Source of the DNA: a virus
DNA: 60,409 nt
Virus record (IMG/VR): IMGVR_UViG_3300025543_005566
Span: 1-60,409 of that record
Direction: 5' to 3' (one strand)
Notes under the pieces: generated by a model
Seen by the model: only the letters and a program-made list of their open reading frames with translations
Database searches by the model: none
What the model was told of the DNA's origin: nothing
Position numbers and translations under genes: made by a program
Part shown: positions 3,688 to 47,500 of the stretch, piece after piece
How positions within the stretch are numbered: position 1 is the first letter of the stretch
Layout: every line of letters starts with the position of its first letter

Positions 3688-4439
3688 TAATAATCTGCTT
3701 TCCGTACAACGAAATAAGTAGTATTTGTGTTTTCATCTTCTGATGTGAAAATTAAACGAAGTAATCCATCATCCGCAAAACTTAATTTACATTCATCAGA
3801 ATTTTTATTAGCACTAAATATTTCCCTTAACATTTCACTGTTAAATGGAATTTTATTATCTTCTCGAGTACCCTCAATAAAGTTAGCATTAACATGAAAT
3901 TCTACTTTATTAGAAAATTCCATACGTTCACCAAATGTAAACTTTAAAATAGGAGTATCGATTGTATCCCTAGTAGCACTTAATGTAACAATTTCATTCC
4001 CTTGAATTGAAGCGGCTGCTCGTACAAACGTAGTGAAGTCATCATTTTCAAGTGTTGTTTCTACTTTCCATTCGATATTTTCATCTACCTCACCTACTTT
4101 ATGTATCATAAGAGGATCAGCTAATGAGTAATTGATAGAAGCTTTAGCGTCTTGAATAGTAAGTTTAGTTAATACTTTATTTGTTTTAGAAGCATCAAGC
4201 ATTAAATCACCCGCTAATACATTTAGTAGTCTATTAAGTTGTGTTGTGTTAAAGATAGCCATTTCACCCTCATTAACCATAGAAAAGTCACTACATGATA
4301 GTTTACCAATCATATCCTTAGTAGGTGCCATAAAATCAATATCAAGTTTACTATCCTTGACTTTCCATTTAACAGATTCTACTTTACCCCCAAGGTAATA
4401 CTTAGAAATAATCGATTGTAATTTGTTTTTTGTTATCAT
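3687..4439 (-). CDS. DNA polymerase sliding clamp, gp45-like (250 aa)
   Basis: Ring-shaped processivity factor that tethers the polymerase to DNA. The protein shows the clamp pattern seen in T4-like cyanophages: an N-terminal helix-strand unit, EGEMAIFNTTQLNRLLNVLAGD in the middle of the first domain, a central DPLMIHKVGEVDENIEW strand region, and a C-terminal VEFHVNANFIEGTREDNKIPFNSEMLREIFSANK. T4 gp45 is 228 residues; this one is slightly longer. Its start overlaps the stop of the polymerase C-terminal gene (ATGA), so clamp and polymerase are translationally coupled. The polymerase ends in a peptide (INKFFQFQ) of the type that docks in such clamps. The sequence is diverged, but context makes the call firm. 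Confidence 0.85.
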   Translation of the reverse strand: MITKNKLQSIISKYYLGGKVESVKWKVKDSKLDIDFMAPTKDMIGKLSCSDFSMVNEGEMAIFNTTQLNRLLNVLAGDLMLDASKTNKVLTKLTIQDAKASINYSLADPLMIHKVGEVDENIEWKVETTLENDDFTTFVRAAASIQGNEIVTLSATRDTIDTPILKFTFGERMEFSNKVEFHVNANFIEGTREDNKIPFNSEMLREIFSANKNSDECKLSFADDGLLRLIFTSEDENTNTTYFVVRKADY

Positions 4440-5368
4440 TGGAATTGGAAGAATTTATTAATGTTAGGGTTTAAGCTAAGAGTCCAACCTAGATCGGTGT
4501 AAAAATTTTCTAGTTTAGATTGAAGAATTGTTTCGAATGATTTTTTTCTATCAGCATAATCATTTAAGAATTTACGCATTCTATCAGGAACATCAAATGA
4601 TAGGAAACCAATTGCTTCAATTTTATAGGGATTGTCAATTAAATAAATCCATTTAATCTTATCACCTTGAACTATAGTACTATGTTGTTTATCTAGTTGC
4701 CAAAAGTGAAGTAAGTCATTATATCTAACTGCTGCTTTTACTCCTACAGGAGCTCCTTTTGCTATTTCAGTTAATACTTCACCTGCTCTTGGTTTTCGAG
4801 TTACATATTCATTTAAAGTTTTTACTGATGTGGGGTTGCCTAAAAGGGCAATATCTGTACTGTTAGATAAAATTGTAGTTCTAAAATCTAAAATTAGCTT
4901 ATCAATATGTTTCTGCTCTGCGCCCTTTAGAATTTGTTGGAGAATATCATTAAAAAACTTCCCAAAAATAGGGGGGAAATTTGCTTTTTTAAATTCAAGT
5001 CCTTTAATATCAAGTGATTCCTTAGCAATACCCTCCTGTTTTGTAATCCATTGGGCGTATCTTCTAGTAGCTCTAAAATAGGCAGAACGAATAACGGCTT
5101 CAGTTTTCATTTCAAGCCTGTGTTCTGTAACATTAAAACAATCTCGAGCTAGTCTATCATAGTCATTTGTAATAATATCTTGATATTTAAGGGCAATTTC
5201 TTCTAGTAGATCATCCTTCTCTATATCACCCATTTCTTCGAAATTAGGGTACAAATGTTTAAGTAGGGGTTCAGCATTAAAGTAATTAGAATCTGTGTCT
5301 ACATAAGCACAAAAGTTGTAATCGCCTTCATCACAAATCCACCAAGGTGTTTCTTCTAAATGTTTCAT
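4436..5368 (-). CDS. Family-B DNA polymerase, C-terminal fragment (motif C and thumb), gp43B
   Basis: This 310-residue gene carries the part of the replicative polymerase missing from the gene at 6305-8008. Polymerase motif C, YVDTDSNYF, with two catalytic Asp residues (24 and 26), lies right at the N-terminus; the rest corresponds to palm end and thumb. The last residues, NPNINKFFQFQ, resemble the C-terminal clamp-binding peptide of RB69/T4 gp43. Active enzyme should need both polypeptides to assemble, because motifs A and B sit on the other subunit. It begins in a TAATG overlap with the 88-residue gene and ends in an ATGA overlap with the clamp gene. Similar two-gene polymerases are known in some Aeromonas T4-like phages. 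Confidence 0.92.
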   Translation of the reverse strand: MKHLEETPWWICDEGDYNFCAYVDTDSNYFNAEPLLKHLYPNFEEMGDIEKDDLLEEIALKYQDIITNDYDRLARDCFNVTEHRLEMKTEAVIRSAYFRATRRYAQWITKQEGIAKESLDIKGLEFKKANFPPIFGKFFNDILQQILKGAEQKHIDKLILDFRTTILSNSTDIALLGNPTSVKTLNEYVTRKPRAGEVLTEIAKGAPVGVKAAVRYNDLLHFWQLDKQHSTIVQGDKIKWIYLIDNPYKIEAIGFLSFDVPDRMRKFLNDYADRKKSFETILQSKLENFYTDLGWTLSLNPNINKFFQFQ

Positions 5369-5634
5369 TAAAACCTAGCTTCGGGATCAACTTGTTGAAT
5401 TCCTCCATCTTTAAGACCTCTAGAAGTTAAAATAGGTTCTGTAATAACAATTTTGAATTTGTTATTATCTATTTTAACAGTACCTCCTTGTTTAAGCATT
5501 TTTTTAAAGAATAGGATCTGCTTATCACTCCAAAGAACACTCATATCTATAATTTCTTGTTTAGAAATAGGTTCTCCATTCCAAGTAATTTTTACGTTAT
5601 TCCTTATTGATTGGGGTTTTAATACTTCGCTCAT
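5368..5634 (-). CDS. Hypothetical protein, 88 aa, between the two polymerase genes
   Basis: Unrecognised small protein containing WNGEPISKQEIIDMSVLW and a DKQILFFKKMLKQGGTVKID segment. No membrane helix. It overlaps the homing-endonuclease stop (ATGA) and shares a base with the start of the polymerase C-terminal gene, so it may simply provide coupled translation into that gene or may stabilise the split enzyme. It could have travelled with the endonuclease, or be an older operon member displaced by the insertion. No family assignment. Confidence 0.6.
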   Translation of the reverse strand: MSEVLKPQSIRNNVKITWNGEPISKQEIIDMSVLWSDKQILFFKKMLKQGGTVKIDNNKFKIVITEPILTSRGLKDGGIQQVDPEARF

Positions 5635-6275: not shown

Positions 6276-6277
6276 AG

Positions 6278-6288
6278 TTATACATATT
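6278..6288 (-). promoter_or_regulatory. Phage promoter motif before the endonuclease gene
   Basis: Coding strand AATATGTATAACT directly before the ATG. It differs from the virion-gene motif AATATTTATAAC by one base. It would let the mobile gene be transcribed independently of the polymerase operon. Confidence 0.45.
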
Positions 6289-6304
6289 ACATGAGCAGGG
6301 CAAA

Positions 6305-8008
6305 TCATAGATTTTCTAAAAAATCTTTTGTAGCTTCAGGGCTCTTAACTAAACTGTTCATATGGCGATTAGCACATAGGGCACTCTCACAGATAATTCG
6401 TTGTCCACTTAAAGTGATAGCTTCAGATAGGATTACATTACCATATCTAAATGAACCCAAAGCGGTAGCACCATAAAGTGAATTAAGCAAAATTTTCATA
6501 GTATGTTGACGTTGGTGCCAAAATACCCCTTTTTCCTTATCACCTGATTGGTATGCTTTTTTCATATAACCTTTATATTTCACTCGTTCATCGAACCATT
6601 TATCAAGAATAGTAGCTAGTACAGAACGTTTATCAGTACGGAAGATAACACCATTTGCTGATATAGCAAAGTTATTGTCTTCGATAAGTTTTATAAGTTT
6701 ATTTACCTTAATATAAGTTTGTTTTCTATCAGGATTTTCAATTAAAAGTTCTTCGTCTGCATCTCTAGTTTTTAAATCATTTAATCCTAAACGATTATTC
6801 CTATCATCAGCATCTACGATACGAGCCATAAGTGTTTCTTTACCTATGTTAAGGGACATAATAATAGAAGGATATAGTGAAGTTAAATCCTCATCAAACA
6901 TATACTTGTAAAGTCCTGCTTTGGGACAAAATAAATATCCCCCAGCATATCCCTTTTTAAAAATAGGATTTCTATCTCTAGAAGGAGGAACAATATTTTG
7001 TCCTAATAAATAAGCTGAAATGGCTCCATCTTGGGTTTTGGTGTTAGCATAAACTTCTCCATAGTTATGTTTACCTTTATGAGATAGGTTTTTTACTAAA
7101 GCTATATATTCAAACTTTTCATCTAACTCCTTAAGTATTTCTACATCTCGGAAGTTATATTTAATAAATTTCTGGATGTCGTCTTCAAATAATCTGTCTA
7201 GATTACCTTCATATTCGATTTTACCTAAACCCACATACTTTTCCCCAATAGCATCTAAACGCATTGATGGTTCATCTCTAAAACTAAACTTTTTATGTAG
7301 TTTCATATAGTCTAGGGATTCAACTCCAGCAATATTAAGCCACCCATTGCGGTTCCATTGGCTTTCGTCTTTTACTACACCTATAGGAGACAAAGCATTA
7401 GCAAAATCTTCTCCTAATACATTACAAATCCTGTAGTATAAGTAGGGAATATCGAAATAATCACTATTCCATCCTACAAGGATATCAGGTTGAATTTCAC
7501 TAAATTTTTCAATAAATGTAGCTAATAATTCTTCTTCAGTAGCTACAGGAATAATTTCCTTATGTCCCTTAGTATGGTTAATTTGTCCTTTTTTATCTAA
7601 AATAAGAATAACCCATTCATCAGGTGTTTTATCATACCAAGCAATTGAAGTTACAGGTTTTGGAGCTGATTGGATATATTCCTCAGTAAGGGCTCCCCCC
7701 ATTTCAATCTCAATATCAAAAAATACCTCTCTGTGTCCCTTAGACACACTATCATCAGTTCCATATTTTTCAATAAGGAATTTTTGATAAGCGGGCATAT
7801 CATGAAAGTGGAGACGTGGGTTATCTTTATCCCAGTTGTAGGTTTTCTTTAACCATTCACCCTTTAGTCCCTGGTATTCTGCTTCACGTTCAGAACATTC
7901 TATGTAAGCAGGAACTCGGTAAGGTTCTACTGAATATCCTTCTTCGGTCCATAAGTGCATTTTATACTGGTTTTTACCAGCATATTCAGCATGACATTTA
8001 GTAAACAT
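6305..8008 (-). CDS. Family-B DNA polymerase, N-terminal fragment (exonuclease, motifs A and B), gp43A
   Basis: The 567-residue first half of the replicative polymerase. The 3'-5' proofreading domain is complete: Exo I VFFDIEIE (Asp98, Glu100), Exo II GWNSDYFD (181-186) and Exo III YNFRD (284-288). Polymerase motif A is DEDLTSLYPSII (Asp374) and motif B is KILLNSLYGATALGSFRYGN (505-524). The gene stops about 40 residues after motif B, before motif C, which is encoded in a separate gene about 0.9 kb downstream. An intact T4-type polymerase has about 900 residues; the two pieces total 877. Its stop overlaps a possible ATG of the endonuclease gene (ATGA). All visible catalytic residues are intact, so I infer a functional split enzyme and not a pseudogene. 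Confidence 0.95.
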   Translation of the reverse strand: MFTKCHAEYAGKNQYKMHLWTEEGYSVEPYRVPAYIECSEREAEYQGLKGEWLKKTYNWDKDNPRLHFHDMPAYQKFLIEKYGTDDSVSKGHREVFFDIEIEMGGALTEEYIQSAPKPVTSIAWYDKTPDEWVILILDKKGQINHTKGHKEIIPVATEEELLATFIEKFSEIQPDILVGWNSDYFDIPYLYYRICNVLGEDFANALSPIGVVKDESQWNRNGWLNIAGVESLDYMKLHKKFSFRDEPSMRLDAIGEKYVGLGKIEYEGNLDRLFEDDIQKFIKYNFRDVEILKELDEKFEYIALVKNLSHKGKHNYGEVYANTKTQDGAISAYLLGQNIVPPSRDRNPIFKKGYAGGYLFCPKAGLYKYMFDEDLTSLYPSIIMSLNIGKETLMARIVDADDRNNRLGLNDLKTRDADEELLIENPDRKQTYIKVNKLIKLIEDNNFAISANGVIFRTDKRSVLATILDKWFDERVKYKGYMKKAYQSGDKEKGVFWHQRQHTMKILLNSLYGATALGSFRYGNVILSEAITLSGQRIICESALCANRHMNSLVKSPEATKDFLENL

Positions 8009-18786: not shown

Positions 18787-19259
18787 TAGATATTGGCTTG
18801 TTCTCTAGTAAATATAGCACTATTCTTCCCATGTTCAGAAAATTCAACTTGTCTTACTTTCACTCGACCATCTGTTTCTTCTTTAACAAATTCATCAATT
18901 TTTTCAAAGACGTATTGAGCAAATTTTTCTGCTCCAGTAGCCGGAAGAACTCGCACTTGAGCTACCCCTGCTTCATCCATTCTTTTAAATGATTCTAGGA
19001 AGGGATCGTCTTCAGCTACAATAAAGGTATGGTCGAATGTGTAATCCATCCATGCTTTAGGATTCATACCATCAATTTGGGTTTTGGCACGTTTCATGCC
19101 TCCGAAATCCCAAACCCAGTTTTTTTCATCAAGTTCACCTTGGAACCAAACTTTAAAACTTACTCCATAACCATGAAGGAATCTACAGTGAGTATCATCT
19201 GCTTTCCATTGACGAAATACACAAGTAAATCCGTCGAATATTTTTGTTGATTGAAACAT
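18786..19259 (-). CDS. queD: 6-carboxy-5,6,7,8-tetrahydropterin synthase QueD (157 aa)
   Basis: PTPS-fold enzyme converting dihydroneopterin triphosphate to 6-carboxy-tetrahydropterin. The zinc/substrate block is DTHCRFLHGYGVSFKVWF, with HGY replacing the common HGH; this belongs to the subfamily with a QW-[KR]A...HC...HGY pattern (FRQWKADDTHC). Downstream are VWDFGGMKRAK, DYTFDHTFIV with the catalytic Asp-His, and the ATGAEKFAQYVFEKI helix. Start and stop overlap queC and queE by one base each, so the three are translated as a block. The product feeds QueE directly. Confidence 0.9.
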   Translation of the reverse strand: MFQSTKIFDGFTCVFRQWKADDTHCRFLHGYGVSFKVWFQGELDEKNWVWDFGGMKRAKTQIDGMNPKAWMDYTFDHTFIVAEDDPFLESFKRMDEAGVAQVRVLPATGAEKFAQYVFEKIDEFVKEETDGRVKVRQVEFSEHGKNSAIFTREQANI

Positions 19260-20056
19260 TATGCTTGGTTTAAAATTTGTTCAACATGCGTTCGTACAGT
19301 TTCCCAATTAACAACTCCTTGCTCATCTGCATAGAGTACTGGGTCGGGTCGGCCCAATTTAATAAATGCTTCAACCCTTTCGACCGAAGACGCTGATTTA
19401 TAATCACTATACCACTTGCCAGCAATATTAATGGGCTTGTAGCTAGTATTTGTATTTGCATATACTGTATCAAAGTCAAGTCCAAGTTGATTACAACATT
19501 CGACTCCATCTTTAAGTATATCAAACTTATCCCCATTAAGGTAAGGGGTAACATAGCTAATGCGCTCAGCGTCCCAATTACCCTCGGTGAAGGCCCTATA
19601 ATCAGCATCTCTGAATTCTTGTCTACAATCAGGATAGATTGCATGATCACCTGCATGAATGCCCATTGCAATATGGACTTCAGTATTTTTTTCATTTGCT
19701 TTGCTTAATGCTACTGCTTGAATAATTGATGAGAAGATTTTGTTTCGGTTAGGAACAACTGTTTCTTTCATATTTTCCTGTTGATAGTGACCCTCAGGTA
19801 CCTCATCACCACCTTCTACAAGGGCACTATTAAGCATAGGGGCTAAACCATCAAGTTTAATTACCCCATACTCTACATCATAATCATCCATAATAAGGAT
19901 GTTTACTAATGCTTGAGCTCGTTCAAGTTCTACTCTATGTTTTTGTCCGTAATCAAAGCTAAGGGCTGTAACTTCATACCCATCTGCTAGTAATCTAAGG
20001 AGGACCGTGCTTGAGTCCATACCCCCTGAGAGGCTAAGTACTGCTTGTTTTTTCAT
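19259..20056 (-). CDS. queC: 7-cyano-7-deazaguanine (preQ0) synthase QueC (265 aa)
   Basis: ATP-dependent ligase that turns 7-carboxy-7-deazaguanine into preQ0. The PP-loop ATP motif is LSLSGGMDSSTVLL, followed by ALSFDYGQKHRVELERA and the VPNRNKIFSSIIQAVAL helix (canonical VPxRN). The C-terminal zinc site expected in this family is absent: where four Cys are usual, the sequence is TSYKPINIAGKWYSDYKSAS, with no Cys at all. The rest (SVERVEAFIKLGRPDPVLY) aligns with the family ending. It is either a zinc-independent QueC subfamily or one with altered chemistry. It starts in a 4-base overlap with the DpdA-like gene. Confidence 0.9.
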   Translation of the reverse strand: MKKQAVLSLSGGMDSSTVLLRLLADGYEVTALSFDYGQKHRVELERAQALVNILIMDDYDVEYGVIKLDGLAPMLNSALVEGGDEVPEGHYQQENMKETVVPNRNKIFSSIIQAVALSKANEKNTEVHIAMGIHAGDHAIYPDCRQEFRDADYRAFTEGNWDAERISYVTPYLNGDKFDILKDGVECCNQLGLDFDTVYANTNTSYKPINIAGKWYSDYKSASSVERVEAFIKLGRPDPVLYADEQGVVNWETVRTHVEQILNQA

Positions 20057-26537: not shown

Positions 26538-27899
26538 TTAGGTGTTTAGTGAAAAAAACTGTTGCGCTAATGCGTCTCGATCTAGAGTATTAAGATTTGT
26601 ATTTGGGAGTTGTTGAACAGGGGCGGGTGCATCGCTATCATCAAAGTGGTGGTCTGAGACTTCAAAATGTCCTGTAGAAGTATCTGCTACCACTGAAAAT
26701 GTCATTCCATCCATTCCGTATCTGTTTTTCATAATGTGAAATCTTCCTGTTCCATTTACTTTATCCTCCTTTTTACGTGAAAGAGATATAGCAATGTCGG
26801 TAACCATCATTTTGTCATAGCTACCGGCAGCTTTATCACCCTCAATTACATCATCTTTTGCTCCAGCTCGATTTACTTGAGAAACAGACCAAACTGGTAA
26901 CTGTAATTCTTTAGCGAGCCCTTTAGTGCTTAGATAAATATCGTCTATTTCTCCTTTTCTATCACTAACTCGTTTTTTAGATGAAAGTAAGTCAACATAG
27001 TCAATAAGAATTAAATCAGGTGCAAATTCTAAATCTTGACACTTTTGAATATGCGATCGAAGAGTATTAACTGTGGCCATTCCAGGTGAGAACTCTTTAA
27101 TAATAAGTTGGCCTGGGAGTTGTTCTACTACTTCATCAATTCTAGCCCTATGTTTAGATAGCGTATCTACCGGCTTACCTGTGAAGAATGCATCGTAGCG
27201 TCGCCCTACATAATCTTCGCCAAGTTCTAAAGTATAATGCAGTACATTATAACCCATTTTCACGGCGTACCCACCAAGAGCAACCAAAGTCCATGACTTA
27301 CCTCCTCCAGGATTACCAAATATAAGACCAAAATCTCCGTTACCAAGACCCCCCTGCATAAATTCATTAAATTTTTCCCAAGGAGTAGGGACAACTTTTC
27401 TAGCATCTTCTCTATAACGAGCTTCAGTGTCTTTAAGATATTCATGTCCTATGTTTTTATCATTACCTGCTTTTAAAGCATTATCAATAAGTCCTCTAAT
27501 AGATTCAAAATCACCCGAGTTAAGTAAATCTACACTATTAAGGAGGGCTTTTTTAAGTTGTTGATTTTTACAAAATGAAGAAAATTCCTTTTCAATATAC
27601 TCTAAATCCGCTGTTGAGGATTGGTAAGCCTCACGAAGTTGTTCTTTAATTGAGAGTTGTAATACTTCATTTTCAACTTTTTTCATTTCTACTTTCAATA
27701 CTTCCATTGTAGGAGTAGTATTGTATTGTTCGTAGTAATCTAAAATATGTTTAACAACCCATTTATGTGCTTGATTGTCAAAATATTCTTCACTCAATAC
27801 ATCATGCATTTGTTGGAGAAACTCCTTATGCGTAAGGAGTGAAGATAAAACCTTTATTTGAAAGGCTGTGCCGTATGTGGAAAGAGAGTTGAGAGTCAA
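26538..27899 (-). CDS. Replicative DNA helicase, DnaB/gp41 family (453 aa)
   Basis: Hexameric 5'-3' helicase. The N-terminal part (YGTAFQIKVLSSLLTHKEFL...) is the primase-interaction domain. The RecA-like domain has Walker A FGNPGGGKSW, Walker B LILIDYVDLL, a SVSQVNRAGAK sensor/H3 region and an arginine-finger region near KKEDKVNGTGRFHIMKNRYG. A Pro- and Asp-rich tail ends ALAQQFFSLNT, which resembles the polymerase C-terminal clamp-binding peptide (FF near the end). It is in an operon with gp32, UvsX and the exonuclease. No primase (gp61-like) gene is seen in this window. Confidence 0.94.
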   Translation of the reverse strand: MTLNSLSTYGTAFQIKVLSSLLTHKEFLQQMHDVLSEEYFDNQAHKWVVKHILDYYEQYNTTPTMEVLKVEMKKVENEVLQLSIKEQLREAYQSSTADLEYIEKEFSSFCKNQQLKKALLNSVDLLNSGDFESIRGLIDNALKAGNDKNIGHEYLKDTEARYREDARKVVPTPWEKFNEFMQGGLGNGDFGLIFGNPGGGKSWTLVALGGYAVKMGYNVLHYTLELGEDYVGRRYDAFFTGKPVDTLSKHRARIDEVVEQLPGQLIIKEFSPGMATVNTLRSHIQKCQDLEFAPDLILIDYVDLLSSKKRVSDRKGEIDDIYLSTKGLAKELQLPVWSVSQVNRAGAKDDVIEGDKAAGSYDKMMVTDIAISLSRKKEDKVNGTGRFHIMKNRYGMDGMTFSVVADTSTGHFEVSDHHFDDSDAPAPVQQLPNTNLNTLDRDALAQQFFSLNT

Positions 27900-27903
27900 A
27901 ACT

Positions 27904-28935
27904 TTAATGTGTTAATCGTGTAAATGTATCCTTTAACCAAAACTCTGTATTTTTAATATGGTGGTTTAACCCATCTTCACTGTATAAACTCATGAATTCC
28001 AAGATACGAAGTTCATTAAGCGGTTCCAATGGTAATTGAGAAAGATATTCCTTTTCTTCATCTGAGACCATGGGGGCTTCTAAATCCATAATTTTTTTAG
28101 TATTAATTAATCTTTCCCAATCATGAACTACTCTGGCAAATACTACACTATCTTTTAAGCGTTCTACACTTAAATCATATAACCTATCAAACGGCATTAC
28201 GCCTTCTGCTAATTCAGGGAATCTTTTAAGCACTCCTTTTTTACCCAATCCTTTAATACCTGGTACTTTATCTGAGGCATCTCCTAGTAGAACTTTATAA
28301 TGAATAAAATTTTCAGGAACAATCCCAAATTTTTCTTTCACAGTAGCCACATCATAAAATTCTCTTTCTATAGGGCGATAGACTGTAATGTTTTTATCTA
28401 CTAATTGGAGGAAATCCCTATCACTAGAAACAATATATGATTTTGAATCAAATCTTTTAGACATATCCTTAGCCATATATGCTATAATATCGTCTGCTTC
28501 TAATTTGTCAATAGAAACAGTTTTAATAGGTAAGCATTTTAAGTATTGGATAAGCCTTGTGATTTGGTCTACTTTAGAATCATTTTCCTCGTCAATATTA
28601 TCAAAGGCATCCCAATTAGTAATACGATTAGTATGTCTTCCAGATTTATATTCGGGAAGTAGGTACCTCCTATTAGTGGAGGCACCTACCCCATCGAATA
28701 CAACGTACATGGCAGTTGGTTGGATTTGATTTATAAGAGCACCTAAAGAACGGAGAAAGCCTGCTAAGCCTCCTATGTGGTTACCGCTCCCGTTTATAAA
28801 ATTTAGTACGGCAAAGTTTCTCAAAAATAAATTGAGACCATCTATGAAAATAACTCTATCGTGTTGCCCGGGTTTGGCAGAACTTTCCCCTTGCTCAATG
28901 TTATTGAGCATCTTTAAGTAATCTTTTTTAATCAT
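27904..28935 (-). CDS. 5'-3' exonuclease / RNase H of the FEN family, T4 Rnh-like (343 aa)
   Basis: Removes RNA primers and flaps during lagging-strand synthesis. PIN-type active-site motifs are VIFIDGLNLFLR, MYVVFDGVG, DKLEADDIIAYMA and IVSSDRDFLQLVD, which supply the acidic residues; the helix-3-turn-helix DNA-binding motif is GDASDKVPGIKGLGKKG. The start shares a base with the uvsX stop (TAATG), showing coupling. T4 Rnh is of similar size (305 residues). Confidence 0.93.
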   Translation of the reverse strand: MIKKDYLKMLNNIEQGESSAKPGQHDRVIFIDGLNLFLRNFAVLNFINGSGNHIGGLAGFLRSLGALINQIQPTAMYVVFDGVGASTNRRYLLPEYKSGRHTNRITNWDAFDNIDEENDSKVDQITRLIQYLKCLPIKTVSIDKLEADDIIAYMAKDMSKRFDSKSYIVSSDRDFLQLVDKNITVYRPIEREFYDVATVKEKFGIVPENFIHYKVLLGDASDKVPGIKGLGKKGVLKRFPELAEGVMPFDRLYDLSVERLKDSVVFARVVHDWERLINTKKIMDLEAPMVSDEEKEYLSQLPLEPLNELRILEFMSLYSEDGLNHHIKNTEFWLKDTFTRLTH

Positions 28936-30014
28936 TATTCAGGTTCTTTTTCGAAGTGTGAAATATCTTGTATTTCTTGGTCTTCAGATATAATATCAAA
29001 ATCAGTACCTCCTAAAATCTTAGCCCACGCTTGAGAATGGTCAGTTTTATATTGTTTGATTTCTTTATCATCATCGTTAATAAACCCGTGTGGTGTCATA
29101 ACAATTTTACCTCGTGTAGTAACTCCATTAATGTGGTTTTTATCAATCTGTAGGTTAGTGCGTTTAGCAAATTCTACCTGCTTACCATCTTTAATTGCTT
29201 TAATTTTAGAGGTACCTGCATTCATAATATTACCAAATGTTACTACAAATGTTGAATCAAACCACATAGCATATCCACCCTTGTTCATCAATTTGGGTTG
29301 ACCCATAGGCGATTCTGCCTTTGCAGTCCAAACCTTATTGATACAAACTAAAGTATTAGTATAAGGGCTACTTTCTTTACGTGAAAGAGTAATACGTTGA
29401 TTTACGTTGTTACCAAACTGTGTAGACATCGCACCCGCATTCCACTCATTATTGTTTTTATTAGACTTAATGGACATTTCGCAAGGTACTGAACCAATTG
29501 AATCCCATAAAAATAACAAATCATAAGGTAAATCACCTTTTTTCTGTTCGTCTAATAAATCTAAAATAAATGCGGCTACGTCTTCAATAGAATTAATAGT
29601 TTCTCTATCCACATAAATGAACTGACCACTATAATTTAGAATTTCACCAGTCTCTTCATCGACTTCAGTATCTAATTCTAATCCCATTTGTTGAGCATGT
29701 TCCCAACTCCATTTCATCTCAGTAATAATAAATACTGGAAGAATTTTACGTTTTTGAGCAGCTACGGCTGTTTCAATTAAAGCCGTTGTCTTACCTGTGT
29801 CCGAGTGTCCTCTTAATAGGACAATATGTCCTTGAGGAATCCCAGGAATTGAAGTTACGTCTTGGAATGCTTGTGAGAGAGGAATCCATTGTTGGTCTTT
29901 AAACTTAACATTTGAGTTAAGCATTTTCTTCTCTTTAAACTTTCCAAGATCGAAGTTTGACTTCAATTCCTGGGAGACTGCAGCTGTTAGTGATGCTTTC
30001 TTTCCTCTAGGCAT
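28935..30014 (-). CDS. UvsX/RecA-like recombinase (359 aa)
   Basis: Strand-exchange ATPase for recombination-dependent replication and repair. It has a Walker A box LLRGHSDTGKTTAL, a Walker B-like LLFLWDSIGSVPCEMS, L1/L2 loop regions around NAGAMSTQFGNNVNQR, and a strongly acidic C-terminus (ISEDQEIQDISHFEKEPE) as in UvsX. It overlaps gp32 by one base (TAATG), so the ssDNA-binding protein and its recombinase partner are made together. Size is close to T4 UvsX (391). Confidence 0.92.
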   Translation of the reverse strand: MPRGKKASLTAAVSQELKSNFDLGKFKEKKMLNSNVKFKDQQWIPLSQAFQDVTSIPGIPQGHIVLLRGHSDTGKTTALIETAVAAQKRKILPVFIITEMKWSWEHAQQMGLELDTEVDEETGEILNYSGQFIYVDRETINSIEDVAAFILDLLDEQKKGDLPYDLLFLWDSIGSVPCEMSIKSNKNNNEWNAGAMSTQFGNNVNQRITLSRKESSPYTNTLVCINKVWTAKAESPMGQPKLMNKGGYAMWFDSTFVVTFGNIMNAGTSKIKAIKDGKQVEFAKRTNLQIDKNHINGVTTRGKIVMTPHGFINDDDKEIKQYKTDHSQAWAKILGGTDFDIISEDQEIQDISHFEKEPE

Positions 30015-30802
30015 TAGCTGAATAATTCGTCAAATTTATCAACTTTTGTCTCTTTAAGGGGGGCCTTTGCAGTGTAATTGTTTTGAGACCCCCCTTTATC
30101 AAAAGGGAGATCGCTAGAGCTTCCTTCGTTAGTAGTTTCTTCTTCAGGAGCTAGGAATGTTTGAAGATTACTCTTCATATCTTCAAATGAGTGACGCTTG
30201 AAGACTTCAGTTGGATTTGCTTGATCCTCTAACCATTTCTGGATTTGGTCAGGCTCGCCAAGTGGTGTTTGCTTCGTTTTAACACGAACCGAAGACTTGT
30301 TATAAGCGGTACCTGTAACATCAGGGCCTACAGTATCTACTGTAATGTCTCGTCCTTGATGGATGTCAGTATAATCACCAATATCTTCATCATCAGCTAG
30401 TGAAAGGAATTCTAGGTAAGTATTCTTACCGAACTGCCAAAGCTTAACACCTTGGTCTTCTTCCCCCCGAACAACTACGGGAACGAAAACACGCATTTTG
30501 GGGTCAAGCTTCTTAGCCAAACGCCAGTTTTCCTTATCGCTTGTTGTACGAAGTTGTTTCGCAAACTCTACGATTGGGTCCTTTTCATCAAAATTAATTG
30601 GTGAAATCATTGTACGTTCTCCAATCCCATAATGGAAGTATACTTCCGTAAAAGGATTAGACTTATTAAATTTGTTGGGAACAATACGAACTGTTTGTTT
30701 ACCAATACTTGGTTTCCAAAACAAGCTCTTGCTGTTGTTTCCGTCTCCCTTGTTTGTTTGCTGCAAGGAGTTCAGCTTACTGCGAATTGCATTTAAATCC
30801 AT
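30014..30802 (-). CDS. Single-stranded DNA-binding protein, gp32-like (262 aa)
   Basis: Coats ssDNA and organises the replisome. Family blocks are SLFWKPSIGKQTVRIVPNKF, the core strand VYFHYGIGERTMISP, WRLAKKLDPKMRVFVPVVVRG, and a flexible Ser/Gly linker before the acidic protein-docking tail KVDKFDELFS. The zinc motif of T4 gp32 is absent, as in cyanophage versions. It leads the operon gp32-uvsX-exonuclease-helicase-nrdB and is served by a strong host-type promoter 36 bases upstream. Confidence 0.92.
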   Translation of the reverse strand: MDLNAIRSKLNSLQQTNKGDGNNSKSLFWKPSIGKQTVRIVPNKFNKSNPFTEVYFHYGIGERTMISPINFDEKDPIVEFAKQLRTTSDKENWRLAKKLDPKMRVFVPVVVRGEEDQGVKLWQFGKNTYLEFLSLADDEDIGDYTDIHQGRDITVDTVGPDVTGTAYNKSSVRVKTKQTPLGEPDQIQKWLEDQANPTEVFKRHSFEDMKSNLQTFLAPEEETTNEGSSSDLPFDKGGSQNNYTAKAPLKETKVDKFDELFS

Positions 30803-30869: not shown

Positions 30870-31256
30870 TTATAGTTCAATAATTTGATGAATTTTTGTC
30901 TTTAATTGATTCAACTCGTTGTGCTGGGTGAGTAAAATTGTATTGCGATAATGTTGCCAATTGACTTTATATCGTACATCTACTACTCCTCCATTTAACA
31001 GTTTTATTAGCTCATTTAGAGCATTTATTGTGTAAAGAGTATTGGACTCTTTTTTTCTATGTACTAAAATAGTGTTGGGTAAAATTGCTTCTATACTAGA
31101 AGGTTCTACATTATAAGTACAGACATACTCGTCATTACTTTTTATATGGAGCACAAAAATTTTCTTATAAAGAATGTCGTAGCTAGATTTCACCTCCACT
31201 AGCGTTTTCTCCAACTCCTCTAATGTAGTAAAGGTGCAAAATAGCTTGTTATTCAT
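30870..31256 (-). CDS. Hypothetical protein, 128 aa, upstream of gp32
   Basis: Unrecognised soluble protein. It begins MNNKLFCTFTTLEELEKTL and has alternating strands and helices (YKKIFVLHIKSNDEYVCTYNV; NTLYTINALNELIKLLNGG; LKTKIHQIIEL). The VCTYNV...ILVHRKKESNTLYTINAL pattern is reminiscent of small conserved proteins of T4-like marine phages, but I cannot name a family. A phage promoter motif ends 4 bases before its ATG and it stops just before the gp32 promoter. Confidence 0.62.
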   Translation of the reverse strand: MNNKLFCTFTTLEELEKTLVEVKSSYDILYKKIFVLHIKSNDEYVCTYNVEPSSIEAILPNTILVHRKKESNTLYTINALNELIKLLNGGVVDVRYKVNWQHYRNTILLTQHNELNQLKTKIHQIIEL

Positions 31257-31260
31257 GTAT

Positions 31261-31268
31261 ATAAATAT
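31261..31268 (-). promoter_or_regulatory. Phage promoter motif before the 128-residue gene
   Basis: Coding strand TAATATTTATATACATG, 4 bases before the ATG; overlaps the stop codon of the polymerase-like gene. Confidence 0.48.
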
Positions 31269-32542
31269 TATACCCTCCCTAAAGAACCATAGGTGCTACC
31301 TGCGTCAACTTTTGTATTAAATTTAAATTCTTTGAACGTGTCCAAAATACACTCTATTGCCTCTTTCTCGGATTTATCCACATCTAAAAGAAATGAATCG
31401 TATGTGTAGTGAACTATACGGGTATTTTTATTCTTTAATATAGATATAATTTTCTCTAAAATAAGAACATTATAATACGTTTCCGTATTTTGAAGTATGT
31501 AATTAAACAGTTTCTCCTTCTTCATATCCGTTTTAAAGACGTATCCAGACTTACAGACAACTTCTTCTTTCCTACTTATATCATCTATATATTTTCCTAC
31601 TCGCTTAAAGAATTCTAAGTCTTTGTAGTTATCAAATACTCCTCCGTACAGCTGTTTGAACGTTAGTTCTTTAGCTTTCTTATAATCTACTCCGTACATA
31701 TCAGCAAACGCTTGGTGTATGTCCTCGTGTTCGAATTCATAATCTACTAATTGTGCCGCTAGTGTAGGGTGGTAAGCACTAATGTCGATCTCCATTAAGA
31801 AATCATTATCGGGAATAAACGCATCCCTACATCCTGTTTTTTTATCTAAAGCAGCATAATTGATTCCCCCAAATGAGTTTGAAGGTCTCGTAGTTGTCGT
31901 TTTTAGGTTAAACTGGGAGTAAGTCCAATCTCGTTCTACACCAAAATGTTCTTCAAAGAGTTTAGGATCAACTCTAATTCCTTCTGCTTCAATCCAATAG
32001 AATACATTTGTCGCCTTGTGGTTGTAAAACTCAAAGTGCGGTGGTTTATCCATAGCGAACACATGTTTAACAGCGTTGTATAGCGTTTCACAGCGTTCAT
32101 AATGCTTTACTATCGGTATGATGCTACCTATGTTGGCTATGTGGGGGTATTTGTTATAGAAGAAATCGTGGCACGGGAACGAGTCGGGTATATCTGTAGG
32201 AGATATGAAATGTATGTCGCTAAGCTGCTTTAAAGGTACTATATGGAGAAATTCCTTTCTATCTCTTACAAATATTTCTTTAAATCCTCCTAATAATTCG
32301 TATACTTTAGATGAGTCACATGAAGTAGCTTCACTATGATTTATATTAAGAATAAAACCTTTTCTATGATTAATTTCTCTAATATAGAATCCTACTATAC
32401 CCCTTAAAAAGGGGTGTTGATTGTCATTAGAGAAAAGGGGTTCAACGAATACTCGTTTAAATCCCTTTTCTTTAAATTCGTTTAGTTGTTTGTTATTTTC
32501 TATGAGCCAAAACACATCACAAGATACGATCGATTCCTTCAA
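31268..32542 (-). CDS. Diverged family-A DNA polymerase-like protein (424 aa)
   Basis: The C-terminal 220 residues follow family-A polymerase layout: TTTTRPSNSFGGINYAAL (cf. TxTGRLSSxxPNLQNIP), motif A FLMEIDISAYHPTLAAQL (catalytic Asp253), O-helix motif B KKAKELTFKQLYG (Lys291, Phe295, Tyr299) and motif C HYTYDSFLLDV (Asp382). Both catalytic Asp are present, but the steric-gate Glu of motif A (DYSxxE) is His258 and the Pol I Arg754 position is Tyr. The first 150 residues may be a decayed exonuclease domain; its acidic residues are not evident. A second polymerase beside a split family-B enzyme is odd; it could act in repair or priming, or carry out an unusual polymerisation. It overlaps the glycosyltransferase stop by 26 bases. 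Confidence 0.75.
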   Translation of the reverse strand: MKESIVSCDVFWLIENNKQLNEFKEKGFKRVFVEPLFSNDNQHPFLRGIVGFYIREINHRKGFILNINHSEATSCDSSKVYELLGGFKEIFVRDRKEFLHIVPLKQLSDIHFISPTDIPDSFPCHDFFYNKYPHIANIGSIIPIVKHYERCETLYNAVKHVFAMDKPPHFEFYNHKATNVFYWIEAEGIRVDPKLFEEHFGVERDWTYSQFNLKTTTTRPSNSFGGINYAALDKKTGCRDAFIPDNDFLMEIDISAYHPTLAAQLVDYEFEHEDIHQAFADMYGVDYKKAKELTFKQLYGGVFDNYKDLEFFKRVGKYIDDISRKEEVVCKSGYVFKTDMKKEKLFNYILQNTETYYNVLILEKIISILKNKNTRIVHYTYDSFLLDVDKSEKEAIECILDTFKEFKFNTKVDAGSTYGSLGRV

Positions 32543-38523: not shown

Positions 38524-41500
38524 TTACAAATCGTTAAAAATTCTAAATGTTAATGAATGCTTGTAGAATAAGCTATAATCAAGAGTATTGTATACTTTAA
38601 ATCTTAGAATGTTGTTTGTAACATCAACATCCTCTGCTTGAATGTATATTTGTTCCAAGTTTAGTCTGGATTTAGTGTATTCAGGAACTAAGTATGGGAT
38701 CGTAAGGTTTAACACTACATCATCGGTGGATGTTGTTCCTCCTATATCGGCCCCATCAATTGTGATTGCTGTAGTTGTTGAATATCCACTTCCCCCATCT
38801 GTTACTATTATTGAAGTAGCAAGTCCTGTATTTCCTATTACAACTGTGGCTTGTGCTCCTGTTCCTCCTCCTGTAATACCAACAGGACCATAGGACCCTT
38901 GGGTCTTATTTCCGGGGTCTGTGGCTACTATACTTATTAATTGGGTTTGAGCAATTTCAGTAGTTACACTTTGTGAAACGAATGTTCCATCTACTTCAGT
39001 AATAGTAAAATCATATAGATAGTTTTTACTTAAAAATGCCCAAAGGGTACCTGTAAATTTCAATGTAGCACCTGCTCTGATGAAGGGGTCAGCAACGGTT
39101 CCTGTTCCGCTATTATTTCCTTTTAATATAACCATTCCATCAAATTCAACTACATCGAATGTGCCAAAGCTAAGCCCCGTATTAAAAATATCAGTTCCTG
39201 GGTTACCCACGGATCCTGCAGGTACACTATCTAATATAGACCAATTTTCTGTGATTGATGTACCTGAAGTACCTGATGAGCCTGATGTGCCTGATGAACC
39301 ACTAGTACCTGAAGAACCTGATGTGCCTGAAGAACCAGATGTACCCGAAGCTCCCGTCATACCTGAAGAGCCTGAAGTACCTGAAGAACCTGAAGTGCCT
39401 GAGGAACCACTAATACCTGAAGTACCTGAAGAGCCTGAGGTACCTGATGAGCCACTAGTACCTGAAGAACCTGAAGTACCTGATGAACCTGATGTGCCTG
39501 AAGCACCTGTCATACCTGAGGAGCCAGAAGTGCCTGAAGAGCCTGAGGTGCCTGAGGAACCACTTGTACCTGATGAACCACTTATACCCGAAGTACCTGA
39601 TGAACCACTTGTACCCGAAGAACCATCTATACCTGAAGTGCCTGATGAACCTGAAGTACCCGATGAACCATCTATACCTGAGGTACCCGATGAACCACTT
39701 GTACCTGAAGAACCGTCTATACCTGAAGTACCTGATGAACCACTTGTGCCTGAAGAACCATCTATACCTGATGTACCTGATGAACCTGAAGTACCTGAAG
39801 AACCGTCTATACCTGAAGTACCTGATGAACCACTTGTACCTGAAGAACCGTCTATGCCTGAAGTACCTGAAGAACCTGAAGTACCCGATGAACCGTCTGT
39901 GCCTGATGAACCTGATGAACCTGAAGTACCGTCTATACCTGAAGTACCTGATGAACCACTTGTACCTGAAGAACCATCTATACCTGAAGTGCCTGAAGAA
40001 CCTGAAGTACCTGAAGAACCATCTATACCTGATGTACCTGATGAACCACTTGTACCTGAAGAACCATCTATACCTGAAGTACCTGATGAACCACTTGTAC
40101 CTGATGAACCATCTATACCTGAGGTACCTGATGAGCCACTTGTACCTGATGAACCGTCTATACCTGATGTACCTGATGAACCTGAGGTACCCGATGAACC
40201 GTCTATACCTGATGTACCTGATGAACCTGAAGTACCTGAAGAACCACTTGTTCCTGAGGTGCCGCTAGAACCTGAAGAGCCACTAGTACCCGAAGAGCCT
40301 GAAGTACCTGAGGCGCCTGTCATACCTGATGAACCGGATGTGCCTGAAGAGCCGTCTATACCTGCAATCCCTGAAGTACCCGATGAACCACTGGTGCCTG
40401 ATAAACCACTTGTTCCTGAAGAACCTGAAGTGCCTGATGAGCCTGATGTACCTGAGGAACCACTAGTACCTGAAGAACCTGAAGTACCTGAAGCCCCTGT
40501 CATACCTGAAGAACCCGAAGTACCTGAAGAGCCTGAAGAGCCTGAAGTACCTGAAGAACCTGAGGTGCCCGATGAACCATCTATACCTGAAGTACCTGAA
40601 GTGCCTGAAGAACCTGATGTACCTGAAGAACCTGATGCTCCTGGGGCTCCTGCTAGGTTTATACACCATGTATAAGAGGTAATTGAAGACCAAGACCCTG
40701 TGGAAGAAGTAACATTAATTTCAATATTTCCAGTTCCTGAGTTATAATTGTTTACGGTACCCTCAATAAAATTAGAGGAATCAATTGCTAATATTATGTT
40801 CTGCCCCGCAGTATAAGCTAATCCGGATCCTATAGCAATAGTAAGAGGGGATGAAGGAGGGTTTGAAATTGTAAGGTTATTAACACATGCAGCATAGATA
40901 TCTCCATCGGTTCCTGAAGCACCTGATGAGCCTGAGGTACCTGATGAGCCTGATGTGCCTGAAGAACCACTAGTACCTGAAGAGCCATCTATACCTGAAG
41001 TGCCTGAGGAGCCTGAGGTACCCGATGAGCCGGATGTGCCTGAAGCACCTGTCATACCTGATGAACCTGAAGTGCCTGAAGAACCTGAAGTGCCTGATGA
41101 ACCCGAAGTGCCTGAAGTGCCTGAAGTACCTGATGAACCGTCTATACCTGAAGTGCCTGAAGAACCTGAAGTACCTGAGGCACCTGTCATACCTGAAGAA
41201 CCTGAAGTGCCTGAAGTGCCCGATGTGCCAGAGGAACCCGATGTGCCTGATGAACCTGAAGTACCTGATGAACCTGAAGTACCTGAAATACCCGATGAAC
41301 CTGAGGAACCACTAGTACCTGAAGAACCACTAGTGCCTGAAGAACCTGAAGTACCCGAAGCTCCGGTCATACCTGAAGAGCCTGAGGTGCCTGATGAACC
41401 TGAAGTGCCTGAAGAACCATCAATACCTGAGGTGCCAGAAGAACCACCGGTACCTGAAGAACCTGAAGTACCTGAAGAACCACTAGTACCCGAAGAACCG

Positions 41501-44500
41501 CTAGTACCTGATGAACCATTAATACCTGAAGTACCCGAAGAACCACTGGTGCCTGAAGAACCTGATGTACCTGATGAACCTGAAGTACCTGAAGCACCTG
41601 CCATACCCGAGGAACCTGAGGTACCTGAAGAGCCACTTCCACCTGTAGCTCCTGAGGTACCTGAAGAGCCACTAGTGCCTGAAGAACCACTAGTACCTGA
41701 AGAACCTGATGAACCTGCAGTACCTGATGTACCTGAAGAACCTGATGTTCCTGAGGCTCCTGTCATACCTGATGAACCCGAAGTGCCTGAAGAACCACTA
41801 GTACCTGAAGAGCCTGAGGTGCCTGATGAGCCACTTTCACCTGTTGCTCCTGATGAACCTGATGTACCCGATGAACCTGAAGTACCTGAAGAGCCGTCTA
41901 TACCTGAAGTACCTGATGAACCACTTGTACCTGAAGAACCATCTATACCTGAAGTACCTGAAGAACCACTAGTACCTGAGGAACCTGAAGTACCTGAGGA
42001 ACCTGAAGTACCTGAAGCTCCTGTCATACCTGAAGAGCCTGAGGTACCTGAGGAACCTGATAAACCTGATGTACCTGATGTACCTGAAGAACCACTGGTG
42101 CCTGAAGAACCACTAGTACCTGATGAACCCGAAGTGCCTGAAGAACCTGATGTACCTGAAGAACCTGATGTTCCTGAGGCTCCTGTCATACCTGAAGAAC
42201 CTGATGTGCCTGAAGAACCACTTATGCCTGAAGTACCTGATGAACCTGCAGCACCTGAAGTACCCGAAGAACCATCTATACCTGATGTTCCTGAAGAGCC
42301 TGAGGTACCTGAGGAACCTGATACACCTGATGTACCTGATGTACCTGAAGAACCACTAGTACCTGAGGAGCCACTGGTGCCTGAAGAACCTGATGTACCT
42401 GAAGAACCTGATGTGCCTGAAGCTCCAGTCATACCTGAAGAACCTGATGTACCTGATGAACCCGATATACCTGATGTACCTGATGTACCTGAAGAACCAG
42501 ATATACCTGAAGAGCCTGATGTACCTGAAGAACCTGAGGTACCTGATGAACCATTTATACCTGAAGTACCGGATGAACCACTAGTACCTGAAGAGCCTGA
42601 TGTACCTGAAGAACCTGAGGTGCCCGATGAACCATCTATACCTGAAGTGCCTGATGAGCCTGATGTACCAGAGGTTCCTGATGAACCCGATGCCCCTGGG
42701 GCTCCTGCTAAGTTTAAACACCATTCTATAGTACCTGAGAATGTTCCCGTGTAAGTTAAATTAATTAATACTATTACCCCTGAATTGGGAGTATAACTAT
42801 CTACTGTTCCTTCAATAAATTGGGTAGCACTATGTGCTAATATTACATTCTGTCCTGCGGTATAAGCTAAATCAGTAGCAAAAGTTAAAGTAAGTGATGG
42901 TGGAGGGGTACCACTAGTAATAGTTTGATTTGCACAATCCGCGTATACATCACCATCCGCTCCAGCAGCTCCTGAAGAACCTGAAGTGCCTGAAGTGCCT
43001 GAAGAACCATCTATACCTGAAGTGCCTGATGAGCCTGATGTGCCTGATGAACCACTAGTACCTGAAGAACCTGATGTACCTGAAGCTCCAGTCATACCTG
43101 AAGAACCTGATGTACCTGATGAACCCGATATACCTGAAGTACCTGATGAACCTGCAGTACCTGATGTACCTGAAGAACCTGAAGTGCCTGAGGCTCCTGT
43201 CATACCTGATGAACCCGAAGTGCCTGAAGAACCACTAATACCTGAAGAACCCGAAGTACCTGATGTACCTGATGAACCTGATGTACCCGATGAACCTGAG
43301 GTGCCTGAAGAGCCGTCTATACCTGAAGTACCTGATGAACCACTTGTACCTGAAGAACCATCTATACCTGAAGTACCTGAAGAACCACTAGTACCTGAGG
43401 AACCTGAAGTGCCTGAAGAACCTGATGTGCCTGAGGCACCTGTCATACCTGAGGAACCTGAGGTACCTGAAGAGCCACTTTCACCTGTAGCTCCTGATGT
43501 GCCTGAAGAACCACTAATGCCTGAAGAGCCACTGGTGCCTGAAGAACCTGAAGTACCTGAAGAACCTGAAGTACCTGAAGCACCTGTTATACCCGAGGAA
43601 CCTGAAGTTCCTGAAGAGCCACTTTCACCTGTAGCTCCTGAGGTGCCTGATGAACCTGACGTACCTGATGAACCTGATGTGCCTGATGAGCCATCCTCAC
43701 CTGTAGCCCCTGAAGTACCTGACGAACCTGATGTACCTGAAGAACCACTAGTGCCTGAAGAACCATCTATACCTGAAGTGCCTGAGGAGCCTGAAGTACC
43801 CGATGAGCCTGATGTGCCTGAAGAACCACTATCCCCTGTAGCTCCTGATGTACCCGAGGAACCACTAGTACCCGAAGAACCAGAAGTACCTGAGGCTCCA
43901 GTCATACCTGATGAACCACTAGTACCTGATGAACCGCTAACACCTGAAGAGCCTGAAGTGCCTGAAGTGCCTGAAGAACCTGAAGTACCTGATGAACCGC
44001 TAAAACCTGAGGAGCCACTAGTACCTGAAGTACCTGATGAACCACTAGTACCTGATGAACCACTAGTACCTGATGAGCCTGAAGTACCCGATGAACCTGA
44101 TGTACCAGAGGTACCTGATGAACCACTAATACCTGATGAGCCTGAAGTACCCGATGAACCTGATGTACCTGAAGAACCACTAGTACCTGAAGAACCTGAT
44201 GTACCCGAAGTACCTGAGGAGCCTGAAATACCCGATGAGCCTGATGTACCTGAAGTTCCCGATGAGCCCGAAATACCTGAGGAGCCTGATGTACCCGAAG
44301 CACCTGTCATACCTGATGAACCGGAGGTGCCTGAAGAGCCACTAATACCTGATGAACCACTGGTGCCTGCAGAACCACTAGTACCTGATGAACCTGAAGT
44401 ACCCGATGTACCCGATGAACCTGATGTACCAGAGGTACCTGATGAACCACTAATGCCTGATGAGCCTGAAGTACCTGATGAACCTGAGGAACCACTAGTA

Positions 44501-47500
44501 CCTGAGGAACCTGATGAGCCTGAAATGCCTGAACTACCTGAAGTTCCTGAAGAACCTGAAACACCTGAGGTGCCTGAAGAACCTGAGCTGCCTGAAGTAC
44601 CTGATGAACCTGATGTGCCTGAGGCCCCTGTCATACCTGATGAACCACTAGTACCTGAAGAGCCTGATGTACCCGAAGTACCTGAGGAGCCACTAATACC
44701 TATGGCGCCTGAGGTGCCTGAGGTGCCTGATGAACCTGATGAACCTGAGGTGCCTGAGGAACCACTAATACCTGATGTGCCTGAAGAACCTGAAGTACCT
44801 GAGGCACCTGTCATACCTGAAGAACCTGATGTGCCTGAAGAACCACTTATGCCTGAAGTACCTGATGAACCTGCAGCACCTGAAGTGCCTGATGAACCTG
44901 AGATACCTGATGTTCCTGAAGAACCTGAGATACCCGATGTACCCGAAGAACCTGATGCTCCGGGGGCTCCCGCTAGGTTTATACACCATTGTTGAGAACC
45001 ACTAAAAGTCCCTGTAGAAGAGGTAACTATAATACTAATGCCCCCTGTTCCCGAATTATAGGACCCAACCGTTCCTTCAATTAGGTTATTAACATTACCT
45101 GGGGTAGCCAATATTATACTTTGTCCCGTTGTATAAGCTAATCCAATTCCTATAACAAGATTAAGGGTACCCGAAGCGGGGGAAGTGAGGGATTGGGTAC
45201 TACAATTGGCGTATATGTCACCATCCTCACCTGATGAACCCGAAGTACCCGAAGAACCACTAGTACCTGAAGAACCTGATGTACCTGAAGAACCTGATGT
45301 TCCTGAGGCACCTGTCATACCTGAAGAACCTGATGTGCCTGAGGAACCTGAAGTACCTGATGAGCCAGCTGTACCTGAGGTACCAGATGAGCCTGATGTG
45401 CCTGAAGAGCCACTAGTACCTGAAGAACCACTAGTGCCGGAAGAACCACTAGTACCTGAAGAGCCACTAGTACCTGAAGAGCCACTAGTACCTGAGGAAC
45501 CCGAGATACCACTAGTGCCTGAGGAACCACTAGTACCTGATGTACCTGAGGAACCACTAATACCCGATGTACCTGAAGAACCTGAAGTGCCAGATGAACC
45601 CGAAGTGCCTGAAGTTCCTGAAGAGCCATTTATCCCAGAGGTGCCGGAAGAACCTGAGGTACCCGAAGATCCTGAAGTGCCAGATGAACCATCGATACCC
45701 GAAGTACCTGATGAACCTGATGTGCCCGAAGCCCCCGTCATTCCTGAGGAACCTGAGGTGCCTGATGATCCTGAAGAGCCGGCGGTGCCTGAGGTACCTG
45801 AAGAACCACTAGTACCTGAAGAACCTGAGGTACCTGAAGAACCATCTATACCTGAGGTACCTGATGATCCTGAAGAGCCGGAGGTGCCTGAGGTTCCTGA
45901 AGAACCACTAGTACCTGAAGAACCTGAGGCACCTGAAGAGCCTGATGTACCAGAGGTACCTGATGAACCACTAATGCCTGATGAGCCTGAAGTACCTGAT
46001 GAACCTGATGTACCTGAAGAACCACTAGTGCCTGAAGAACCACTAGTACCTGCAGAACCGCTAGTACCTGAAGAGCCTGAAGTACCTGAAGTACCCGAAG
46101 AACCGTCTATACCTGAGGTACCCGACGATCCTGATGAACCTGAGGTGCCTGAAGAACCTGATGTGCCTGAAGAACCACTAGTACCTGCCGAACCGCTAGT
46201 ACCTGAAGAGCCTGAAGTACCTGATGCACCCGTCATACCCGAAGAACCTGAAGTACCTGATGAACCTGCAGTACCTGAAGAGCCATCTATGCCTGAAGTG
46301 CCCGATGAACCTGAAGTGCCTGATGAACCACTAATACCTGATGAACCACTAGTACCTGAAGTGCCTGATGAACCACTAGTACCTGATGTGCCTGATGAGC
46401 CACTAGTACCTGAAGAGCCACTGATGCCTGATGATCCCGATGTGCCTGAGCTACCTGAGGTGCCTGAGGAGCCTGAAAAACCTGAAGTGCCTGATGAGCC
46501 GGATGTACCTGATGTACCTGATGAGCCTGAAGAACCACTAGTACCTGAAGAACCTGAGGTACCTGAAGAGCCATCTATACCTGAAGTACCCGAAGAACCA
46601 CTAGTACCTGAGGAACCATCTATACCTGAGGTGCCTGAGGAACCTGAGGAACCTGAGGTACCTGACGAACCTGATGAGCCTGATGAACCCGAGGTACCTG
46701 AGGCACCTGTCATACCTGAAGAACCTGAAGTACCTGATGAGCCTGATTCTCCAGATGTACCTGAAGTACCTGATGAACCTGATATTCCAGATGAACCTGA
46801 AGTACCTGATGAACCTGATGTGCCTGAAGAACCTGAAGAACCTGAAGTGCCTGAGGAACCGTCTATGCCTGAGGTACCTGAAGAACCTGAAGAACCTGAA
46901 GTACCAGATGAACCTGAAGTACCCGATGAACCCGATATACCTGAAGTGCCCGATGAGCCTGAGGTGCCAGATGAGCCTGAGGAGCCAGATGTGCCCGAAC
47001 TACCTGAAGTACCTGAAGAACCGGATGTACCTGAAGCACCTGTCATACCTGATGAACCGCTAGTACCCGATGAACCCGATGATCCTGAAGTGCCTGAAGT
47101 GCCTGATGATCCTGCTGCTCCTGGAGCTCCCTCTAGGTTTATACACCATTGTAGAGAAGTAGGGGTAGGCCAATTCCCTGTTTGGGAAGTAATATCGATT
47201 TCTATATCCCCATTTGATGAGTTATATGAATTAACTATTCCTACTATATACTGTGTGGCACTATATGCTAGTATTACAGTTTGACCTACTGTATATGCTA
47301 GTCCTGCGGCTATGTTTATATTAAGGGGGTCTCCAGGGGGATCGGTAATGGTTTGAGTGCTACAATCGGCATATATGTCACCATCTTCACCAGATGAACC
47401 CGAAGTGCCTGAAGTACCTGAAGTACCTGAGGAGCCTTCGGCACCCGATGATCCTGATGTACCTGATGAGCCGCTTCCTCCTCCTCCTGTTCCGTCATTA

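Follow-up and report, generated by a model that had tools for sequence, protein, structure and literature searches.

Identification of a divPolA1 gene

What use a phage makes of a compact family-A polymerase with an altered steric gate is the question raised by a minus-strand open reading frame (ORF) in a 60,409-base genome fragment, IMG/VR virus record IMGVR_UViG_3300025543_005566. This fragment, the whole stretch of DNA analysed, is called here the window, and statements about whole genomes are therefore based on relatives. The ORF is open from 31268 to 32542 and, read from a TTG start, encodes 424 aa. A first-pass annotation, made from the letters of the window, had described it as a second, diverged family-A polymerase, possibly primer-making, lesion-bypassing or tolerant of modified bases.

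31268..32542, minus strand: ORF with its upstream end at TTG 32542 (ORF list)
31268..32515, minus strand: divPolA1 gene, probable extent, with a GTG start at ORF codon 10 (alignment, model confidence)

The ORF is a genuine gene, and purifying selection was found in four pairs (dN/dS between roughly 0.08 and 0.29; in three of them dS was close to saturation). Alignment of 54 representatives, chosen at <75% identity from 249 full-length proteins, placed a Met at the position of codon 10, here GTG, in 50/54, and the confidence of the AlphaFold2 model was <50 upstream of this codon. On these two grounds the gene probably starts at GTG 32515 and not at TTG 32542, such that the extent first annotated holds for the ORF but probably not for the start.

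The window protein belongs to divPolA1, a family named by Yutin et al. 2024 (PMC11348598) in 14 phages including Flavobacterium phage immuto. The accessible sections of that paper predict a palm that keeps its catalytic residues, a thumb cut short and an exonuclease that has lost its activity; they place the gene in a replication neighbourhood, note that the genomes also have a regular polymerase (family A, B or C), and judge that DNA polymerase activity is most likely retained. The window protein is homologous to the immuto protein, keeps the catalytic residues of the palm, has a dead exonuclease and lies in the same cassette, in addition to a regular polymerase. The same sections describe divPolA2, also a divergent extra PolA without exonuclease, which differs from divPolA1 in its variable neighbourhood and unrelated N-terminal domain and is set apart here by that description. 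In the literature searched, the name divPolA1 was found only in Yutin et al. 2024 and its preprint, and no report of enzymatic activity for a divPolA1 protein turned up. For divPolA1, the accessible sections mention neither the gate residue nor the partner gene described below as such, nor a comparison with primases; what the present analysis adds to print is a pocket with an invariant His and a partner gene in tight linkage.

A tblastn search of 50,697 phage records gave six strong records, four of which are Flavobacterium phage immuto (32.9% identity over 92%, E 4e-65; homologue annotated 'DNA polymerase family A'), the others being an uncultured phage of 484 kb (26.6%) and Microcystis phage Mel-JY01 (27.2%); in ten further records E was 0.1 or worse. 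A profile scan of IMG/VR disclosed a relative encoded in at least 591 stretches, among 600 collected, and divPolA1 is thus far larger than the 14 published phages. Among 84,980 bacterial and archaeal species genomes 12 loci were found, nearly all titled MAGs and several of them Flavobacteriales, which are most simply explained as phage contigs binned with Bacteroidota hosts. When 255 sequences were scanned with profiles, 254 matched divPolA1, and the one that did not (L013) has only a 37-residue end. A search for related loci that took its query from the 484-kb phage gave no loci. The locus sets consist of the best 80 per search and so are biased to close relatives, and they contain duplicates (L014 is the window, and L095 is immuto again).

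Predicted fold

The ORF is predicted to encode an intact family-A polymerase fold. An AlphaFold2 model computed with 52 aligned rows (pLDDT 93.1, pTM 0.90) had the fold of the Pol I large fragment, and in VIA-align the Bacillus Pol I large fragments ranked first among the matches listed. The best was 4dse (Bst Pol I large fragment; Z 25.7, rmsd 3.8, 369 aligned), on which model residues 10-422 covered chain positions 300-876. The 369 residues were aligned with a Pol I chain of 546 residues, and the thumb lies inside that total; the divPolA1 protein is smaller, 424 residues vs about 580 in the Bst fragment. Foldseek ranked the apicoplast polymerase first (E 1e-16), and its top matches listed were all family-A DNA polymerases. 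The match in a viral structure library was a phage Pol I.

Profile searches gave the same assignment. All 12 of the solved structures listed for the divPolA1 profile were Pol I (best E 0.019). In this alignment D253, H258, K291, F295, Y299, Q351 and D382 fell on their Taq equivalents, and the register was identical in a profile-profile comparison with the PolA of E. coli and immuto (E 3.4e-6). The window protein matched phrog_17 (DNA polymerase) in a PHROG search (E 1.2e-7). Pfam DNA_pol_A, searched to a threshold of E 1, did not match it but did match 2/3 more distant relatives scanned, and a direct sequence search among solved structures gave no match for the window protein.

Active site and exonuclease part

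31784..31786, minus strand: Asp253 codon, motif A (D705 of E. coli Pol I; alignment, profiles)
31769..31771, minus strand: His258 codon, steric-gate position (E710 of E. coli Pol I, E615 of Taq; His in 54/54)
31646..31672, minus strand: O-helix Lys291, Phe295 and Tyr299 (K758, F762 and Y766; alignment, profiles)
31397..31399, minus strand: Asp382 codon, motif C (D882), with Tyr-Asp-Ser replacing His-Asp-Glu (alignment, profiles)

The catalytic core of bacterial Pol I (Bst, Taq, Klenow) is kept in divPolA1, which has equivalents of D705, D882, K758, F762, Y766 and Q849; that of R668 was assigned by eye from the motif. The annotation had read both motif aspartates and the O-helix as retained, and the alignment with Taq and E. 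coli Pol I bears this out. Residues R219, D253, H258, K291, Y299, G300, Q351, Y381 and D382 are, among others, invariant in 54/54 representatives, and F295 is kept in 53/54.

The replacement of the gate Glu by His258, likewise proposed from the window, proved genuine and family-wide, since His was found in 54/54 representatives and in all nine of the genome-collection loci that cover motif A (11/12 loci gave a match). Beside this change from the canonical E710, the equivalent of H881 is Y381 in 54/54, that of E883 (position 383) is Ser in 31 and Ala in 23 of 54, and that of R754 (position 287) is Tyr in 49/54. Four Pol I pocket contacts are therefore altered together with the catalytic aspartates retained. 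As a control, the main PolA of six divPolA1 genomes was found to keep E710, R754, H881 and the four exonuclease acids, with Leu at F762 and Gln at E883.

The residues altered in divPolA1 contact the incoming nucleotide in Pol I, and the motif-A Glu of family A helps exclude ribonucleotides. The Glu-to-His change may mean that ribonucleotide exclusion has been lost. His258 is itself bulky and may also serve as a gate; a His gate is reportedly present in archaeal PolD.

A phage family-A enzyme with the same Asp-Ser in motif C is the PolA of Thermus phage Tt72, in which this sequence is natural and the enzyme active; in the accessible part of that report, mutant S616A had 76% activity and E389A, altered at the gate Glu, 35% (PMC9324360). 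Tt72 PolA works with Ser, so the absence of the second motif-C acid need be no obstacle in divPolA1. It differs from divPolA1 in having the gate Glu (E389) and, in the same part of the report, strong proofreading. E710 of E. coli Pol I is described there as important for the ternary complex (PMC9324360), and losing it could therefore also impair catalysis. According to the accessible part of another paper, an E. coli E710 mutant grew poorly (PMC13136892).

The N-terminal part was examined for the carboxylates of the Pol I exonuclease, which are not conserved in divPolA1. Within residues 10-215, Asp or Glu occurs in at least 90% of the 54 sequences only at 71, 109, 149 and 185, and no conserved D-x-E pair was found there. 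These data support the view, taken from sequence in the first annotation too, that the 3'-5' exonuclease part is decayed and probably inactive, its proofreading acids having been replaced. The mean pairwise identity was 33% over residues 10-140, 38% over 141-215 and 46% over 216-424, and four residues of the N-terminal part are invariant (H43, H69, K96 and D109). As the proofreading acids are lost but the domain is retained and constrained, it probably now serves as a structural element or a binding surface.

The replication cassette and the 128-aa partner

30870..31256, minus strand: 128-aa uncharacterised partner protein, adjoining divPolA1 (linkage counts)
30014..30802, minus strand: single-strand DNA-binding protein (SSB), gp32-like (Pfam/PHROG-type matches, cassette)
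28935..30014, minus strand: UvsX/RecA-like recombinase (family matches, cassette)
27904..28935, minus strand: stand-alone 5'-3' exonuclease (family matches, cassette)
26538..27899, minus strand: DnaB-like replicative helicase (family matches, cassette)

The order divPolA1-partner-SSB-UvsX-5'-3' exonuclease-DnaB was found to be almost fixed. Where at least 7 kb of downstream sequence was available, the partner, SSB and UvsX genes were present in 97/97 loci and all five genes in order in 95/97. The partner was found at 239/254 loci, a median of 20 bases downstream of divPolA1; contig ends are one possible cause of its absence at the other 15. In the reverse search, which started from the partner, divPolA1 lay upstream in 63/63 loci with at least 1.5 kb upstream, among the best 80, and in the phage collection the partner matched exactly the six strong divPolA1 records. 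This tight linkage suggests that divPolA1 and the partner work together. The six strong divPolA1 records also supply the closest DnaB helicases (identity 43-57%), followed at 33% by those of two SPO1-group Lysinibacillus phages.

The partner was modelled with high confidence (pLDDT 93.0). It matched no family at useful strength in Pfam or PHROG and no fold confidently, the best VIA match having Z 6.7 over 60 residues and the best Foldseek match E 0.14. The protein carries a strongly conserved NTxYTINxLN stretch.

Elsewhere in the window, genes for GTP cyclohydrolase (10676-11371) and for QueE-like (18010-18786) and QueC-like (19259-20056) proteins were found; these FolE, QueE and QueC genes probably serve 7-deazapurine DNA modification. 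An 847-aa protein (11960-14503) has CarboxypepD_reg and TonB-dependent receptor plug domains, unusual for a phage. A phage GroEL-like chaperonin is encoded at 398-2056, and print likewise reports chaperonins near the regular polymerases of divPolA1 phages. A 3116-aa ORF (38524-47874) is overlapped on the opposite strand by several long ORFs (the longest of 699 aa), which suggests repeats or compositional bias.

The main polymerase of divPolA1 phages

6305..8008, minus strand: main DNA polymerase, family B, N-terminal part (exonuclease, motif A; domain matches)
4436..5368, minus strand: main DNA polymerase, family B, C-terminal part (motif C; domain matches)

The description as a second family-A polymerase was right as to family, but the other polymerase of the window is a split family-B enzyme, and the idea of a second family-A polymerase in the window was rejected. 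This family-B polymerase (4436-8008) is encoded by ORFs of 567 and 310 aa, between which lie a homing endonuclease gene (5631-6308) and an 88-aa ORF; PolB ORFs of similar size were seen in two related records (560 and 313 aa in G013, 610 and 306 aa in G009).

Among 17 divPolA1 records searched for PolA and PolB, a separate full PolA was found in 7, PolB in 8, both in 0 and neither in 2, the last two being fragments. As the main polymerase is PolA or PolB depending on the record, divPolA1 appears to stay while the replicative enzyme is swapped, and it therefore probably does something that the replicative enzyme cannot.

Proposed function and alternatives

The first annotation's idea of a specialised family-A enzyme is borne out by fold, conservation and context, which point to a remodelled nucleotide pocket and dead proofreading. 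As to its task, we think it rather likely that divPolA1 is an auxiliary DNA polymerase lacking proofreading which, with its partner, carries out short-patch or recombination-linked synthesis. The compact polymerase would work beside the main replicative polymerase of the phage, and the 128-aa protein would bind it. The pair might perform short-patch synthesis at the fork, filling gaps made by the 5'-3' exonuclease in the manner of a split Pol I, or extending recombination intermediates made by UvsX, or both; primer replacement is another candidate job. Against a split Pol I, divPolA1 and the 5'-3' exonuclease are linked through the operon rather than physically, and their genes are separated by others.

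Use as a translesion or modified-base polymerase, copying damaged or 7-deazapurine DNA by means of the remodelled pocket and without proofreading, is considered unlikely but deserves attention. The dead exonuclease, the changes at residues in contact with the incoming nucleotide and the presence of FolE, QueE and QueC genes in both the window and immuto would all fit. The gene, however, is kept in a replication cassette and not near modification or repair genes, and 7-deazapurines pair normally.

A bolder form of the partnership is an obligate two-subunit polymerase, composed of divPolA1 and the 128-aa protein, in which the His would act as a sugar gate tuned to RNA-DNA junctions, such that DnaG primers would be extended or replaced, or ribonucleotides inserted on purpose. 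We regard this as a long shot, and we know of no family-A enzyme that works in such a mode.

It seems quite improbable that divPolA1 is the actual replicative polymerase and the 'regular' enzyme the auxiliary one. Its fixed place in the operon while the other polymerase varies would agree with this, as would the remark, in the accessible sections of Yutin et al., that what the regular enzymes do is less obvious (PMC11348598). Yet divPolA1 is small and lacks conserved proofreading acids, and in the main PolA copies both the full exonuclease and the gate are retained.

Primer synthesis was suggested by the first annotation because no primase gene was seen in the window, and the primase profile agreed in finding none within this 60-kb fragment. 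A family-A fold that made RNA or mixed primers for DnaB, its Glu gate lost, would suit the invariant Glu-to-His change and the operon shared with SSB and DnaB. The large relatives speak against it: with the phrog_47 profile, which represents T4 gp61-type primases and matches T4 itself, a gp61/DnaG-like primase was found in 10/10 divPolA1 records of at least 150 kb (8 + 2), in 2/7 of 102-126 kb and in 0/2 shorter ones (93 kb and 7.5 kb). Some of these matches overrun stop codons at their edges but are built on open frames of 310 to 344 aa. Toprim_2 gave a concordant result in 10 records (one below cut-off) but did not pick up T4. The primase of immuto is annotated DnaG. Since a primase is encoded elsewhere in the large records, the primase reading is not supported; replacement of the primase by divPolA1 was dropped, and a primer-making role is held to be very improbable.

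Least credible of all is a PolA-derived single-subunit RNA polymerase, as print proposes for divPolA2: the gate Glu is lost and co-option of PolA in this way has a precedent in T7-like phages (PMC11348598, accessible sections), but the profile and fold matches listed (Foldseek, VIA-align), by themselves no disproof, comprise DNA polymerases and no RNA polymerases, and the cassette consists of replication genes.

An auxiliary DNA polymerase of the kind favoured here would be at work in many large, mostly aquatic phages, the carriers of divPolA1. As a natural family-A family with His uniformly at the position of the textbook ribonucleotide gate and with a dedicated neighbour gene, divPolA1 opens the rules of sugar selection to direct test, and it could give a useful enzyme.
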